Positions 1-21,767 of a stretch of DNA of 38,052 nucleotides are shown one piece after another. The first letter of the stretch is position 1; each line of letters starts with the position of its first letter. Below the pieces are notes generated by a model, which was given only the letters and a program-made list of their open reading frames with translations, was not told the DNA's origin and searched no databases. Both the position numbers and the translations under genes were made by a program. Origin of the DNA: Aurantimonas coralicida (GTDB taxonomy: Bacteria > Pseudomonadota > Alphaproteobacteria > Rhizobiales > Rhizobiaceae); the NCBI GenBank assembly GCA_011050685.1, contig DRFF01000196.1, forward strand, positions 1 to 38,052. Direction: 5' to 3'.

Positions 1-19
1 AGATGTGTATAAGAGACAG
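1..19 (+). other. Nextera transposase adapter (sequencing artefact)
   Basis: The first 19 bases are exactly the Tn5 mosaic-end adapter used in tagmentation libraries, AGATGTGTATAAGAGACAG. It is not genomic. Translated, it gives the familiar artefactual protein starts MCIRDS and MYKRQ. Genuine sequence begins at base 20, inside glyS. Confidence 0.97.
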
Positions 20-1141
20 CTGCAGGGCGAGCACCCGTCGGTGCAGGCGGCGATTGAGGAGCATTACAAGCCGCTCGGGCCGACGGACACGGTGCCGACC
101 GACCCGGTGGCGGTTTGCGTGGCGCTGGCCGACAAGCTCGACATGCTGGTCGGCTTCTGGGCGATCGACGAGAAGCCGACGGGGAGCAAGGACCCTTATG
201 CGCTGCGGCGCGCTGCGCTCGGGGTGATCGGAGTGATAGTGGACGGAGCACTTCGTATCTTGCTGAAGTCCGTAATATTGGAAGCGTATGATCTCCACTT
301 CGAACGTCTGCAGGCTAAGGTAGACGAAGGTGCGAACGTGAATTCGCTCGTGTCACCGGATATCCTCTACCGCGACCTTCTCGCCTTTTTCCATGACCGT
401 CTGAAGGTGCAGCTCCGCGACTCCGGGGCCCGGCACGACCTTGTCGATGCGGTGCTGTCGGGCGGCGCCGCCCCCTCATCCGCCCCTCCGGGGCACCTTC
501 TCCCCGTCGGGGAGAAGAACAGGTCTGCGCCGCCTGGCGCCTCGACCGGATACGGCTACGACAAAAGAATTGCGGATGGCGACGAAAAGGGCACCATTCC
601 TCGCCCCGGCGGGGAGAGGGTGGACGACGCGAAGCGGCGGCCGGGTGAGGGGGCGGATGCACCAGCATCCGAAGCGACGCCTTCCGACCCTCATCAAGGG
701 GAAAGTGGAACAGCACCCCACGAGGACCTCCTCGACATCACCCGCCGCGTGGAGGCGCTGGGAAAATTCCTCGACTCTGAAGACGGCCAGAATCTCCTCG
801 CCGGCACCCGCCGCGCGGCGAACATTCTCGCCGCCGAGGAGAAGAAGGGCACCCGCATCGCCGAAACCGTCGATCTCGCTCTGTTGACCGAGCACGAGGA
901 AAAGGCGCTCGCCGGCGCCGTCGACCGGGCCGAGATCGAGCTGGAAGAGGCGCTGGCGGTCGAGAATTACGCGCACGCCATGGCCGCGCTCGCGAACTTG
1001 CGCATTCCCGTCGACGCGTTTTTCGACAAGGTGCTGGTCAACGCCGAGGACGAGGCCGTCCGCGCCAATCGTCTGGCACTGCTCGCCCGCATCCGGGCGG
1101 CGACGCGAAAGGTCGCCGATTTCGGCAAGATCGCCGGCTGA
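20..1141 (+). CDS. glyS: Glycine--tRNA ligase beta subunit, 3' part (5' end missing)
   Basis: This is the C-terminal 373 residues of the beta chain of the alpha2beta2 glycyl-tRNA synthetase, which charges tRNA-Gly in the cytoplasm. Recognisable blocks are [40 protein letters not shown], the helical anticodon-binding tail with [15 protein letters not shown] and [11 protein letters not shown], and the usual ending VADFGKIAG. The upstream part of the gene lies off the contig, which starts with an adapter. The oddity is a Pro/Gly/Arg-rich insert of roughly 85 residues between DLVDAVLS and [13 protein letters not shown]. It is encoded by a palindromic repeat (bases 468-656 plus flank). Related proteins, as I remember them, have only a few residues at this point. 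The reading frame stays open through the repeat, so the gene is probably functional. Confidence 0.95.
468..656. repeat. Composite RIME-like palindromic element inserted in glyS
   Basis: The 189-bp unit has near-identical inverted ends: ccgccccctcatccg on the left and, as its reverse complement, ccgccccctcacccg on the right. The left half has two hairpins, GCCCC-TCC-GGGGC (482-494) and CTTCTCCCC-GTC-GGGGAGAAG (497-517). The right half is an inverted, degenerate copy with CCTCGCCCC-GGC-GGGGAGAGG (599-619, one mismatch). This resembles the Rhizobium intergenic mosaic elements (RIME). A single related half-element lies at 21560-21612. The length is exactly 63 codons and contains no stop in the glyS frame. 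Confidence 0.85.
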
Positions 1142-1247
1142 GCTTGCAAGGCGCCACATTCGGCGCTTCATTCAACCCGAACGCCTTTACCGGGGCAGGC
1201 GACGCGATCACATCCCCGTGTTTCGAGGCTCGATGGAGTGGGCAGCG
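1142..1247. other. Intergenic region downstream of glyS
   Basis: An imperfect GC hairpin (AAGGCGCC with GGCGCTT, about 1147-1170) follows the glyS stop but has no T run, so termination is uncertain. The rest of the 1142-1487 gap holds the CtrA-type site and the hairpin leader listed separately. I see no gene in the gap. Confidence 0.5.
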
Positions 1248-1262
1248 TTAACCAAAAATTAA
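1248..1262. promoter_or_regulatory. CtrA-type binding site
   Basis: TTAA-CCAAAAA-TTAA is an exact match to TTAA-N7-TTAA, the consensus of the alphaproteobacterial cell-cycle regulator CtrA. It lies about 225 bp upstream of the GH25 muramidase and is the only complete match I noticed. CtrA control of that gene is inferred from position only. Confidence 0.55.
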
Positions 1263-1408
1263 CTCAAAGTTGAGGGTTTCCGGGACTTTGTGGTAAAATC
1301 GTCAGGTCTCGCCTTTACTGTGGCTTCCTGAACGCCTGACTGAAACATTTCGTGATCGGCTTTGCCCGGAACCTGCCAGATTTGAAGGGGATAGCTGCGC
1401 TCAGCCGC

Positions 1409-1450
1409 TTGGGACGGATTTGAACCTTCGGGTTCAGGGGGCCGTCCCGA
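1409..1450 (+). promoter_or_regulatory. Stable hairpin in the GH25 5' leader
   Basis: The outer stem GGGACGG (1411-1417) pairs with CCGTCCC (1442-1448). The inner stem TGAACC-TTCG-GGTTCA (1421-1436) is closed by a UUCG tetraloop. It ends about 37 nt before the ATG at 1488 and has no T run, so it is unlikely to be a terminator. It may stabilise the leader or limit initiation. Confidence 0.5.
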
Positions 1451-1487
1451 AACCAGACTTCGAGCGACTTCGAGGGGAAACCAGCGA

Positions 1488-2987
1488 ATGATGAAGCTCA
1501 GCGCCGTTACGACGGCTGCCGTGAAATTTGCCTGCGCCATCGTCGCGGGCACGCTGTTGATCAGCGGTTCGGCTCATGCCGAATGGAAAGCTCCGTGGAA
1601 ATCGGACGACAAGGCGCTTGTGATCGATGCCTACGAGTTCAACCCGATCAACTGGCAGGAACTGACCTCGGACAAGCGTATCGCCGGCTTTATCAACAAG
1701 GCCTCCGATGGCCTGCCGCCGGCGTGGAGCTGCGGCAAGAGCGACGACGACGCCTACAAGCTATGCAAGAACCGCTGGTGGAAATATTCGGTCACCAAGG
1801 AACTCTATATGACCCGCCGCGAGATGGCGAAGATGAAGGGGCTCCTCTGGGGCGCCTATCATCTCGGCCGTCCCGGCAATCCGCGCGAGCAGGCCGATCA
1901 TTTCGTCGATTTCGCCGAGCCGGCTGAGGACGATCTGATCGCGCTCGACATTGAGGACAATTCGGAAGAGTGGATGAGCCTCGCCGATGCCGAGATTTTC
2001 GCTGACCAGATCAAGATCCGCACCGGTCGCTATCCCGTGCTCTACACCAACGGCTCGACCGCCAAGGCGATCTCCGCCCAGCGGGCGCAATATCCGCTGC
2101 TGTCGCGTCTGCCGCTCTGGTATGCCCGCTACCGCGACGATATCACCGGCAAGTTTCCAGAGGAGACCTGGCCGAGCTATGCCCTGTGGCAGTTCTCCTC
2201 AATGCACAATTGCGACAGCCGCAGCTGCCCGTACCGGGTGAAGGGCGCCAAGACCGATATCGACGTCAATGTTTCGACGATGGACGTCGCCGGCCTCAAG
2301 GCGGCCTGGCCGTTCAACGAGCTGATCGAGCGGGCGCCGGACGCCGACGACCCGGCGATGATGATCGCGTCGCTGGACGAGACGACCAAGGCGGAGGTGG
2401 CCAAGGTTGCTGTCGCGACGGAAGCCGACGCGACGACCCCGCCCAAGCCCGGCGCCAAGCCGACGACGAGCCCGCTGGTCGCCGCCTATGGCCCCGCTGA
2501 GCAGCATGCGCGGCTGGACCCGCTGAAACTCCTGACCAATGTCGCTCGTGGCGCAACGAAGGCAGACAAGCCTGCGCTTGTGGCGGACGCCGGGAAGGAG
2601 CCGTCGGGTGAAGCCGTCCGCCAGTTCCAGACCCATCTCGCCGCGCTGCAAGACGCGGTTGCCTACGCCGCCAACGAAGTCGACCGGCTGTTCATCGGCC
2701 GCGCGGAAGCGGCGACGCGCCGGGAAGAGGCACGGCCGATCAAGGGCGACGACGAAAGTGCGGGGCTGGATTTCCGTCAGCGCTCGCGTTTCGCCGAAAT
2801 CGTCAAAGCGGCGGAAGCGGCCAAGAAGGCCGGTGCCCTGCCGATGCCTGCGCGGATACTCTCGCAGTTGGGCGCTGAGGGCGGCGACCGCGGCCCGCGC
2901 GTCGCTCTACCCGGTGCTGGGCAACGCTTTGCCGGGCTCGACATTCCCGCCCGCCGCATCGACGCGGCGTTCGAAGCGACGCGCTGA
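1488..2987 (+). CDS. Secreted GH25 family lysozyme (muramidase) with long C-terminal tail
   Basis: This is a 499-residue exported protein predicted to cut the beta-1,4 bond between MurNAc and GlcNAc in peptidoglycan. Residues 1-31 are a Sec signal peptide ending SAHA before EW. Residues about 42-275 form a GH25 barrel: DAYEFNPINW (Asp47), FINKASDG, WGAYHLGRPGNPREQADHF, the D-x-E pair in IALDIED (Asp154, Glu156), YPVLYTNGS, LPLWYARYR, YALWQFSS and DIDVNVS. Residues about 285-499 are Ala/Pro/Glu-rich, mostly low complexity, and match nothing I know. The start is supported by AGGGGA about 10 nt upstream; a second ATG follows immediately. The gene stands alone with its own leader and a CtrA-type site upstream. 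Export and catalytic residues are visible; a role in wall remodelling is inferred. Confidence 0.88.
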   Translation: MMKLSAVTTAAVKFACAIVAGTLLISGSAHAEWKAPWKSDDKALVIDAYEFNPINWQELTSDKRIAGFINKASDGLPPAWSCGKSDDDAYKLCKNRWWKYSVTKELYMTRREMAKMKGLLWGAYHLGRPGNPREQADHFVDFAEPAEDDLIALDIEDNSEEWMSLADAEIFADQIKIRTGRYPVLYTNGSTAKAISAQRAQYPLLSRLPLWYARYRDDITGKFPEETWPSYALWQFSSMHNCDSRSCPYRVKGAKTDIDVNVSTMDVAGLKAAWPFNELIERAPDADDPAMMIASLDETTKAEVAKVAVATEADATTPPKPGAKPTTSPLVAAYGPAEQHARLDPLKLLTNVARGATKADKPALVADAGKEPSGEAVRQFQTHLAALQDAVAYAANEVDRLFIGRAEAATRREEARPIKGDDESAGLDFRQRSRFAEIVKAAEAAKKAGALPMPARILSQLGAEGGDRGPRVALPGAGQRFAGLDIPARRIDAAFEATR

Positions 2988-3040
2988 TCCCGCGCTCTTC
3001 GCTTTTTTAGGCGTTCAGCAAAATTTTATCGGATCAACGT

Positions 3041-3065
3041 GGAACCAAAGCTCACGACAACCGTT
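3041..3065 (+). promoter_or_regulatory. EcfG-type (general stress) promoter
   Basis: GGAAC (3041-3045), a 16-nt spacer and CGTT (3062-3065) match the GGAAC-N16/17-CGTT consensus of the alphaproteobacterial general stress sigma factor EcfG. It lies about 40-50 bp upstream of the small membrane protein gene, the expected distance for its promoter. Confidence 0.65.
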
Positions 3066-3112
3066 TCAGACCCGAACAATTACGCCAACATGCTAGAGTA
3101 CGGGTGCTTCAA

Positions 3113-3361
3113 ATGAATAAAACAATTGGCTGGGTCGTCGGTATCATCGTTCTGTTGATCGTGGTCTGGTTCGCCTTCACGATGATCAATGTGGATGTGA
3201 CCGAGGAAGGCGCGTTGCCTGAAGTCAGCGTCGATGGCGGTCAGCTGCCCGAGGCAGAGGTTACGACCGGCGATATCGACATCGGCACGGAAGAAAAGAC
3301 GATCGAGGTTCCGACGATCGACGTCCAGCCGGCCCCAGAGACCGACAAGCCCGCCAACTAA
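3113..3361 (+). CDS. Small single-pass membrane protein, conserved hypothetical
   Basis: The product is an 82-residue protein of unknown function. Residues about 6-25 form one transmembrane helix (GWVVGIIVLLIVVWFAF). An acidic, Pro/Val-rich tail with a semi-regular pattern (EVSVDGGQLPEAEVTTGDID, then EKTIEVPTIDVQPAP) follows, probably in the periplasm. The start could also be the in-frame GTG at 3104, which has AGAG upstream; I prefer ATG-AAT-AAA at 3113. The gene is monocistronic, with an EcfG-type promoter just upstream and a strong intrinsic terminator just downstream, suggesting a stand-alone stress-induced envelope protein. I recall similar short proteins in other Rhizobiales but know no function. 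Confidence 0.75.
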   Translation: MNKTIGWVVGIIVLLIVVWFAFTMINVDVTEEGALPEVSVDGGQLPEAEVTTGDIDIGTEEKTIEVPTIDVQPAPETDKPAN

Positions 3362-3397
3362 GTTCTGGCGAGCCGCCTGCGGTTCCAGTAAGAACCC

Positions 3398-3436
3398 TAA
3401 AGGGCAGTGGCGAAAGCCACTGCCTTTTTTATTTTT
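3398..3436 (+). terminator. Rho-independent terminator
   Basis: The 9-bp stem GGCAGTGGC (3403-3411), GAAA loop and GCCACTGCC (3416-3424) are followed by TTTTTTATTTTT, with an A-rich run before the stem. It closes the small membrane protein transcript. Confidence 0.93.
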
Positions 3437-3485
3437 GGGCTGCTCCACATTTGGGGCCGCATGAGGTCTCGTTTGGAAGCCGGCC

Positions 3486-4532
3486 ATGACGTCTGAACGC
3501 GCTGTCCCCGATGTCGCTTCGGTCTGTTTAGGCGCAGCTCGTGCTGGTGCAATCGAGACGACCTGCCTTTCGGCCGAAAGCGACGACGCTGTCGAGCGCG
3601 CGGTCGCCTGCCTTCGCGGTGGCGGCCTCATCGGCCTACCGACCGAGACGGTCTATGGGCTCGCGGGCGACGCCACCAATGGCGAGGCCGTCGCACGGAT
3701 CTTCGAGGCCAAAGGCCGTCCCCGCTTCAACCCGCTCATCTGTCACGTCAGCGACCTCGACATGGCGGCACGCCTGGCCGTCTTGGATGACATCGCGCGG
3801 GCGCTGGCGGCGCGATTCTGGCCCGGGCCGCTGACGCTCGTCCTGCCGCAGGCGGAGGGAACGCCAGTTCATCCGCTGACGACCGGCGGTCTTGCCACCA
3901 TCGCGATGCGTCAGCCGAAAGGGATCGCTGGCAACATCATTGCGCGCCTCGGCCGTCCGCTCGCTGCGCCGAGCGCCAATCCTTCGGGGCGGGTCAGCGC
4001 CACCAGCGCGGGCCAGGTGATGCGTGGCCTCGGCGGTCGAATCGAGATGATCCTCGACGCGGGTCCGTCGGAGCTCGGCCTGGAATCGACCATCGTCAAG
4101 CCGGAGCGCGATCGCCTGGTACTGTTGCGCGCCGGCCTTGTCGGACGTGACGCCCTGCACGAGGCGACGGGGCTCGCCGTCGTCGCGCCGGATGCGGGTT
4201 CGGGCATCGAGGCACCGGGTCAGCTCCGGTCCCATTATGCGCCGCACGGCACGGTTCGGCTCGACGTGAATCATGTCGAGGCCGGCGAATATCTGATCGA
4301 TTTTGGCGAGACCCCGATCGCCGGCGCGGATGGGGCGGCCGAAATCGTCAATCTCAGCCCGTCCGGAGATCTGCGCGAGGCGGCGGCGAATCTGTTCGCG
4401 GCGCTGGCCCGCTTCGACCGGCCGGAGATCGCGCGCATCGCCGTGGCGCCGATCCCGCAAGAGGGGCTGGGCGAGGCGATCAACGACCGGCTTCGCCGCG
4501 CCGCCGCGCCGCGGGACTGCCGCCGCGAATGA
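3486..4532 (+). CDS. tsaC: L-threonylcarbamoyladenylate synthase (Sua5-type)
   Basis: The enzyme makes threonylcarbamoyl-AMP from Thr, bicarbonate and ATP, the first step of tRNA t6A37 modification. At 348 residues it is the long Sua5 form. The YrdC domain (about 30-215) shows GLPTETVYGLAGDA, the KGRPRFNPL substrate loop, FWPGPLTLVL, SANPSGRVSATSA and LGLESTIV. The C-terminal Sua5 domain starts after the APGQLRSHYAP linker. The ATG has GGAAG upstream. A flavoprotein dehydrogenase follows after 45 bp on the same strand, an arrangement I have seen in other Alphaproteobacteria, so co-transcription is likely. The family call is secure; whether it is named tsaC or sua5 is a matter of convention. 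Confidence 0.93.
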   Translation: MTSERAVPDVASVCLGAARAGAIETTCLSAESDDAVERAVACLRGGGLIGLPTETVYGLAGDATNGEAVARIFEAKGRPRFNPLICHVSDLDMAARLAVLDDIARALAARFWPGPLTLVLPQAEGTPVHPLTTGGLATIAMRQPKGIAGNIIARLGRPLAAPSANPSGRVSATSAGQVMRGLGGRIEMILDAGPSELGLESTIVKPERDRLVLLRAGLVGRDALHEATGLAVVAPDAGSGIEAPGQLRSHYAPHGTVRLDVNHVEAGEYLIDFGETPIAGADGAAEIVNLSPSGDLREAAANLFAALARFDRPEIARIAVAPIPQEGLGEAINDRLRRAAAPRDCRRE

Positions 4533-21559: not shown

Positions 21560-21612
21560 TGCCCCTCACCCGGTTCGCTCCGCGAACCACCCTCTCCCCG
21601 CAGGGGAGAGGG
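21560..21612. repeat. RIME-like palindromic half-element
   Basis: The unit starts GCCCCTCACCCG, then GGTTCGC-TCC-GCGAACC (21572-21588) and CCCTCTCCCC-GCA-GGGGAGAGGG (21590-21612). The layout (CCCCTCAnCCG, a first hairpin with a TCC loop, a second CTCCCC/GGGGAG hairpin) is the same as the left half of the element in glyS. The perfect stems suggest recent spread or selection on structure. Confidence 0.85.
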
Positions 21613-21767
21613 ATGGCGCGTCATCGCCGAGGCTTGCAGAATGGAGTACTGTTCTTTTCCCCAGTGGCGGGCGATGGTGGCCACGCCGAGTCTGGTCTCA
21701 GGTCAGACCGAGGACGGGCTCCTGACCGGCTGAGGGGCATGTTGCTTGCGGATCTGAGATTCAAGCT

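Follow-up and report, generated by a model that had tools for sequence, protein, structure and literature searches.

The window analysed here, a stretch of 38,052 nucleotides from an Aurantimonas coralicida contig, raises the question of how a palindromic repeat comes to be read in frame inside glyS, the gene for the beta subunit of glycyl-tRNA synthetase (GlyRS). RIMEs, which belong to the repeats of rhizobial genomes, are composite palindromes. In the accessible parts of two papers, rhizobial repeats are described as intergenic (PMC2573895, PMC2245857), RIMEs being so described in the first. Palindromes inside genes are already known from two other systems, the Rickettsia palindromic elements (RPE) and the intragenic REPs. 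According to excerpts of the published accounts, RPEs are palindromes of about 150 bp that lie in frame in unrelated Rickettsia genes and can add peptide (PMC10969869, PMC3733652). Excerpts of the second source also describe GTAG/CGTC REPs of several genera, which occur inside ORFs as palindromes and dimers, many of them in genes for DNA synthesis or repair; tRNA synthetases are among the hosts, and recB of two Xanthomonas carries them at about the same site (PMC3733652).

An in-frame palindromic repeat in GlyS

The glyS frame of the window (Table 1) encodes 379 residues and is open right through the insert. Profile searches identify its product as GlyS by PF02092 and DALR_1, and also by TIGR00211, whose score lies below that model's own cut-off because the window protein is partial. 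The N-terminal part of the gene lies on contig C58, where it stops 18 bases short of the contig end, with GlyS profile positions 1-406 on C58 and 407-535 on the window's contig, C196. The best-matching named relatives of the window protein come from Aureimonas, Jiella, Mesorhizobium and other Hyphomicrobiales.

Table 1. Features located in the window and the evidence for each
Feature	Position	Strand	Evidence
Adapter (presumably Nextera), not genome	1..19	none	Transposase sequence at contig end, read by eye
glyS, C-terminal part of GlyRS beta subunit, 5' end open	2..1141	+	ORF, profile matches
Loop of linker B, 87 residues/codons	461..721	+	Alignment; short linker in G002, G006, G007
Composite palindromic repeat, 189 nt = 63 codons, named family F1	468..656	+	Genome matches, fold, inverted arms
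Left half-unit (CCCCTCATCC...CACCTTCTCCCC..GGGGAGAAG)	468..519	+	Best other genomic match spans 470-519
Right half-unit, inverted	591..656	+	Genomic matches start at window 583-594; arms
Extra insert sequence beyond F1, small hairpin (GGATGCACCAGCATCC)	657..721	+	Counterpart in G005
Second, partial F1 copy	21562..21619	-	DNA match

The insert occupies a loop, here called linker B, bounded by DLVDAVLS (437-460) and EDLLDITRR (722 on). Within the F1 element, inverted arms pair 468-485 with 639-656 (89%) and 494-519 with 597-622 (85%), and a local hairpin joins 497-506 to 508-517 (100%). The RNA fold of the element reaches -111.3 kcal/mol (z -5.26), a stability attained by none of 200 dinucleotide shuffles, and is predicted to form a single long helix from which two hairpins branch off and whose tip is structured in part. 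The 63 codons and inverted halves that the first-pass annotation had described are thus confirmed, whereas its four hairpins were a loose account of this fold. Apart from itself, window 460-717 is matched 17 times in the source genome, in part by halves that lie paired at one locus, so that with the open frame the claim of a multicopy palindromic repeat read in frame inside GlyS stands. Being palindromic and multicopy, the insert is ruled out as an ordinary lineage-specific protein segment. The predicted loop of about 85 residues is likewise borne out, both by its codon count and by an AlphaFold2 model of the window protein, in which pLDDT falls below 50 at residues 157-237 and at residues 1-4.

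An Rfam scan of window 1-4000 returned no known RNA family above threshold; a sub-threshold match to BjrC68 lies at 3371-3435 (21.4 bits against a gathering score of 39).

The same insert is present in the sister genome G005, with 84 aligned insert codons at 89.7% nucleotide identity. No close relative was seen to share the segment as ordinary, non-palindromic protein; in the genus-mates G002, G006 and G007 its place is taken by a short linker. Counting a few flanking residues, linker B measures 90 residues in the window, 89 in G005, and 9, 11 and 11 in these three.

Recurrence at linker B

The panel comprised 100 genomes, the source genome included, with a GlyS match in 97. Ninety loci were read, seven matching genomes being left out, and one locus (L131) lacks the N part, leaving 89 rows. 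Linker B reaches at least 25 residues in 14 of these, with inserts of 42-90 residues; the filled genomes are five of the eight in the source genus, eight others of the family and one of another family. All 14 inserts are palindromic, with fold z values from -3.7 to -11.4 against 40 mononucleotide shuffles. The insert is therefore real, as first described, but is no single oddity, the more so as two further loops of the protein are used in the same way (see below).

A larger set of 168 rows joined the panel with 79 of 80 loci from a similarity search with the window protein; some genomes occur in it twice (e.g. L013 and L032). It contains 39 inserts of at least 25 aa at linker B, a count biased towards inserts because the window protein used to rank these loci had its insert in place. 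Cultured carriers of a filled GlyS include Jiella mangrovi and the Aquibium strain of L038. Thirty-three are clearly palindromic (z -3.3 or lower), and the six that are not (L045, L047, L048, L050, L051, L063) all come from similarity-selected loci. On a quick, weakly supported tree of 235 columns, the B inserts of the panel call for a minimum of 12 state changes. Because the tree is weakly supported, the case for repeated arrival leans on the different repeat families found at one site.

Repeat families and copy number

Clustering the 39 inserts by DNA (E 1e-9) gave F1 with nine members, the window's among them, F2 with 15, F4 with six, and nine singletons. By this grouping, several repeat families occupy one GlyS site. 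F1, F2 and F4 share by eye a common core, CTCCCC..TTGNGGGG, and may on that account be distant relatives instead of wholly unrelated.

Family representatives were searched in 32 genome handles, two of which (G027 and G101) look like one genome, and each genome's own glyS copy was counted. F2 gave 44-151 matches per genome in 15 of 15 genomes, F1 3-78 in 7 of 7, F4 1-37 in 6 of 6, and, for the other inserts, a query joined from four of them 12-74 in 4 of 4. In G059 and in G116 a query taken from a different genome matched once, and no second copy was found. Multicopy status is doubtful in G113 (two matches) and in G005 (three matches, the two listed both lying in its glyS).

Only one transposase family, Y1_Tnp, was sought: matches occurred in two of 13 genomes, that of the source genome spanning 28 of 121 positions and the other having an internal stop, and no mobilising enzyme was found in this search. 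Mobilisation by a RAYT was rejected on this count. No target-site duplication was seen by eye at linker B.

Element copies were also observed just upstream of glyS in G054 (C3:688048-688163, in L173) and just downstream of it in G041 (C117:15361-15487, in L178), as if elements spread locally.

Other loops of GlyS

We surveyed 81 full-length sequences among 188 GlyS rows, some genomes again occurring twice. Relative to G006, these 81 rows have no insertion of at least 18 residues outside four sites, A to D, of which B is the linker described above. By peptide resemblance, elements lie at site C in nine rows (L038, L039, L053, L082, L093, G035, G039, G040, G054) and at site D in seven (L034, L036, L038, L044, L082, G039, G054); G039, G054 and L038 have B, C and D all occupied. 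At the DNA level, the D copy of G054 shares 95% identity with the B-copy query across 120 nt, the C copy of G039 is 92% identical to that genome's own B copy, and the closest match of the G039 B copy in that genome lies in ileS (94%).

As a control, 29 loci from a class-wide search (28 from other orders, one from the same order) contained no element-sized insert, their longest segments being 16 residues at B, 8 at C and 22 at D; this control leans towards insert-free genes because its loci are the best-scoring of 157 matching genomes.

Two of these sites also hold segments of other kinds. Site C of G002, G005, L033 and L065 carries a related segment of 38-41 aa (EARKADRPSPGQG-like). Site A (window ~230-376), between ALGVIR and FFHDRLKV, varies in length from 17 to 124 aa and is mostly ordinary-looking, although L042, L059 and L063 resemble another translated repeat there (MAGLDPAIH..DARVKPGHD-like).

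The L038 protein (944 aa), which has all three loops filled, was modelled with AlphaFold2 from 54 aligned sequences at a mean pLDDT of 78.3, with pLDDT of at least 90 at 517 of 944 residues. Values below 50 fall at 315-348 (site C), 466-491 (site D), and 690-786 and 795-802 (site B), and also at the smaller stretches 151-163, 517-520, 587-591 and 644-646. Five PDB relatives were found at E 0.001 (7yse, 7eiv, 7lu4, 8ie2, 7xjy). The low pLDDT of the GlyS loops suggests, rather than proves, disorder.

Elements in other genes

DNA searches located elements inside cobN and near the C-terminal end of uvrB in the source genome (G000), and, in G039, inside ileS, inside a PcrA/UvrD-type helicase between two domains, and near the C-terminal end of queG. 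The ileS assignment concerns L202, whose Pfam match by itself indicates only a class I synthetase. In L216, of a pyrimidine phosphorylase-like family, the element lies in the N-terminal part of the ORF, perhaps ahead of the true start. Gene families were scanned at 5 of 9 loci in G000 and 12 of 25 in G039, and we give no figure for the genic rate because these scans covered part of the loci.

Further hosts emerged when 60 genomes were searched by peptide, a design that is biased in frame and of whose matches part were listed. Among the matches listed are cobN (G001, G003, G004, G009, G027), ileS (G009, G035), site C of glyS (G035), a dehydrogenase E2 (G027) and a biotin carboxylase (G021); several long element-bearing ORFs had no family match in these searches.

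As in GlyS, positions recur. All six aligned CobN rows have the element at one common site, these rows having been picked as matches and that of G000 being a fragment. IleS has two sites. At the first, the peptide is F1-type in G009 and F2-type in G035, whereas G039 has none; at the second, it is F1-type in both G009 and G039, and G035 has none.

Three further observations concern individual genes. The UvrB of L193 (G000 C100:15900-18700) has a long C-terminal extension with two F1-like half-units ~250-300 nt apart. A half-element lies inside an annotated E2-type gene (dihydrolipoamide acetyltransferase family) on a Shinella zoogloeoides plasmid (L234), and the E2 gene of G027 (L306) likewise has an element match. 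In an annotated plasmid collection, the best 60 of 133 matching records include two with a feature under the match and three without annotation, the gene table being incomplete; one matching Sinorhizobium stretch is without annotation.

Reading register and selection

Searches that ignored frame yielded seven F1 copies, namely those at glyS site B in G000, G041 and G039, those at glyS site C, in the helicase and in ileS of G039, and that in cobN of G000. All seven are read in the identical register. Four more copies at glyS site B (L039, L049, L060, L102) agree with them; these come from an insert-including search and are not frame-blind. Element coverage in this scoring is partial for L049, L060 and the glyS-C and helicase rows, and L043 was left out as a loose pattern match.

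The suggestion that the repeat is kept so as to hold just one frame open fails, as most scored F1 copies have two of the three registers open. In the five of the seven frame-blind F1 copies that were scored over the whole element, one alternative register is open and would give a net charge of +8 to +18, against -3 to +1 for the register used; L039 has no open alternative. The ten F2 rows at glyS site B, which are not independent, use a register of charge -3 to 0. The next register (+8 to +12) is open in nine of the ten, and the third (0 to +4) is open yet unused in four. Exceptions to the bias occur in cobN of G009 and G027, where parts of the F2 elements use different registers. The register bias is compatible with selection against an Arg-rich loop, but also with position-specific insertion.

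Between the window and G005, dN/dS is 0.33 in the insert and 0.11 in the flank; over 12 non-independent pairs taken as orthologous, it ranges from 0.14 to 0.65 and from 0.06 to 0.17, respectively. Ten of these 12 pairs have a lower dS inside the insert than in its flank. The arms of F2 covary by eye, 12 of 13 rows keeping one central pair complementary. Three influences may be at work together: a weak constraint on coding, a constraint on the palindrome, and homogenisation of copies. The low insert dS and the arm covariation, in particular, would reflect palindrome constraint, copy homogenisation or arms that arrive ready-made, and they count against a reading in terms of tolerance.

Origin of the inserts

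We hypothesize, and hold to be probable, that these are MITE- or REP-like selfish palindromes whose insertions last wherever a flexible linker can accommodate them without loss of frame, most being read in the least basic register. The insert of the window would have landed in glyS in an ancestor common to the source genome and G005, in the linker between the putative DAVL-ending helix and the anticodon-binding domain. With the frame open, the repeat would be translated in the cell as a disordered, near-neutral loop rich in Gly, Pro, Ser and Glu and tolerated by the enzyme. Mobility of the repeats would then let different palindrome families fill the same few loops (B, C and D of GlyS, one of CobN, two of IleS) repeatedly. 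The pattern would amount to a viability filter on selfish insertions, acting on frame, stops and perhaps charge, with no copy-specific function; the charge filter is the weakest step.

A stronger version of this hypothesis, possible but rather unlikely in our judgement, holds that the palindromes are 'translation-safe', their arms being shaped for one soluble, near-neutral register. Linkers of essential enzymes would then be a refuge, since an imprecise deletion in one of them would be lethal, and loops of GlyS, IleS and CobN would be long-term docking sites. If this is true, a few loops of these three proteins have been reused over long times by different palindromes.

The identical site and register of most copies could also be set by the chemistry of insertion, i.e. 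by sequence- or structure-specific integration, with protein tolerance secondary. A left flank like YTGGCGAGYGG, which by eye adjoins inserts of several families, would agree with such a hotspot. We nevertheless regard it as unlikely, given that different families, genes and loops are affected, that no target-site duplication is visible by eye, and that the GlyS sites are modelled in loops, which would not be expected from chemistry alone.

Homologous recombination with another lineage could have brought in inserts and their flanking codons as one piece, and recurrence would then be over-counted. Flanks of the form L[ASG]...ND (window 461-466 and 713-727, and panel rows) surround 12 of the 14 insert-bearing panel alleles and are found in 6 of the 75 empty ones. 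They sit ill with simple insertion and may be scars of lost elements, a sign of a permissive longer linker, or segments moved along with the insert. The weak resolution of the 235-column tree leaves room for such transfer. Different families per site would still require several separate arrivals, and in G039 and G054 the glyS copy has its nearest counterpart, among the genomes searched, in other copies of its own genome; transfer thus seems an improbable source of the pattern.

The very stable folds, the arms that by eye stay complementary despite changes and the lower insert dS in 10 of 12 pairs could instead point to a regulator acting at the RNA level, a glyS mRNA hairpin kept for RNase III-like cleavage, ribosome pausing or attenuation and tuning GlyS, with the frame secondary. 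Such a hairpin would lie deep within the ORF, at three different places depending on the genome, and 75 of the 89 panel genomes do without a B insert. Complementarity, moreover, may arrive with the element and not be selected in glyS, because the repeats are multicopy elsewhere. RNA-level regulation accordingly appears quite doubtful to us.

Finally, an assembly chimera near the adapter-bearing contig end, which the first-pass annotation had named as a danger and which the adapter at the contig start might suggest, is practically out of the question, being ruled out by the counterpart in G005 and by the split of glyS between C58 and C196, with the insert starting 460 nt in from the contig end and 13 further panel genomes carrying inserts at linker B.

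Comparison with known repeats

The tolerated selfish palindromes proposed here resemble previously described elements in being read through open frames, in our case in glyS, cobN, ileS and a PcrA/UvrD-type helicase, as RPEs are. The likeness to RPEs is drawn from their published description; our hosts are Hyphomicrobiales, not Rickettsia, and several families fill one identical site across genera. Intragenic REPs differ from our units, which are longer composites, with a Y1 transposase match in only 2 of 13 genomes, and whose same-site filling spans many genera and several loops of one protein. No GTAG or CGTC tag was seen by eye at the ends of 468-656. RIMEs are likened to the F1 element by description only, as repeats of rhizobial genomes, and differ in being described as intergenic, whereas the window copy lies inside glyS. 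F1 is short and multicopy with inverted terminal repeats, as MITEs are, and differs from them in that no target-site duplication was visible by eye and no partner transposase was found in the Y1_Tnp search. Among the matches listed in a search of mainly open-access literature, we found no earlier report of translated palindromes inside Hyphomicrobiales genes. New are the group of hosts, the occupation of identical sites by more than one family, the use of three sites within a single protein, and the bias in register.

Repeats would thus become protein sequence outside Rickettsiales as well, with natural replicates at identical sites. These replicates make the question raised by RPEs, whether such inserts are junk, a refuge or raw material for protein segments, directly testable. 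The finding also accounts for the unusually long GlyS, IleS and CobN of some of these genomes, and it calls for caution in annotation, such loops being repeats and not domains. Selfish DNA may find refuge in a small number of protein loops of these bacteria.
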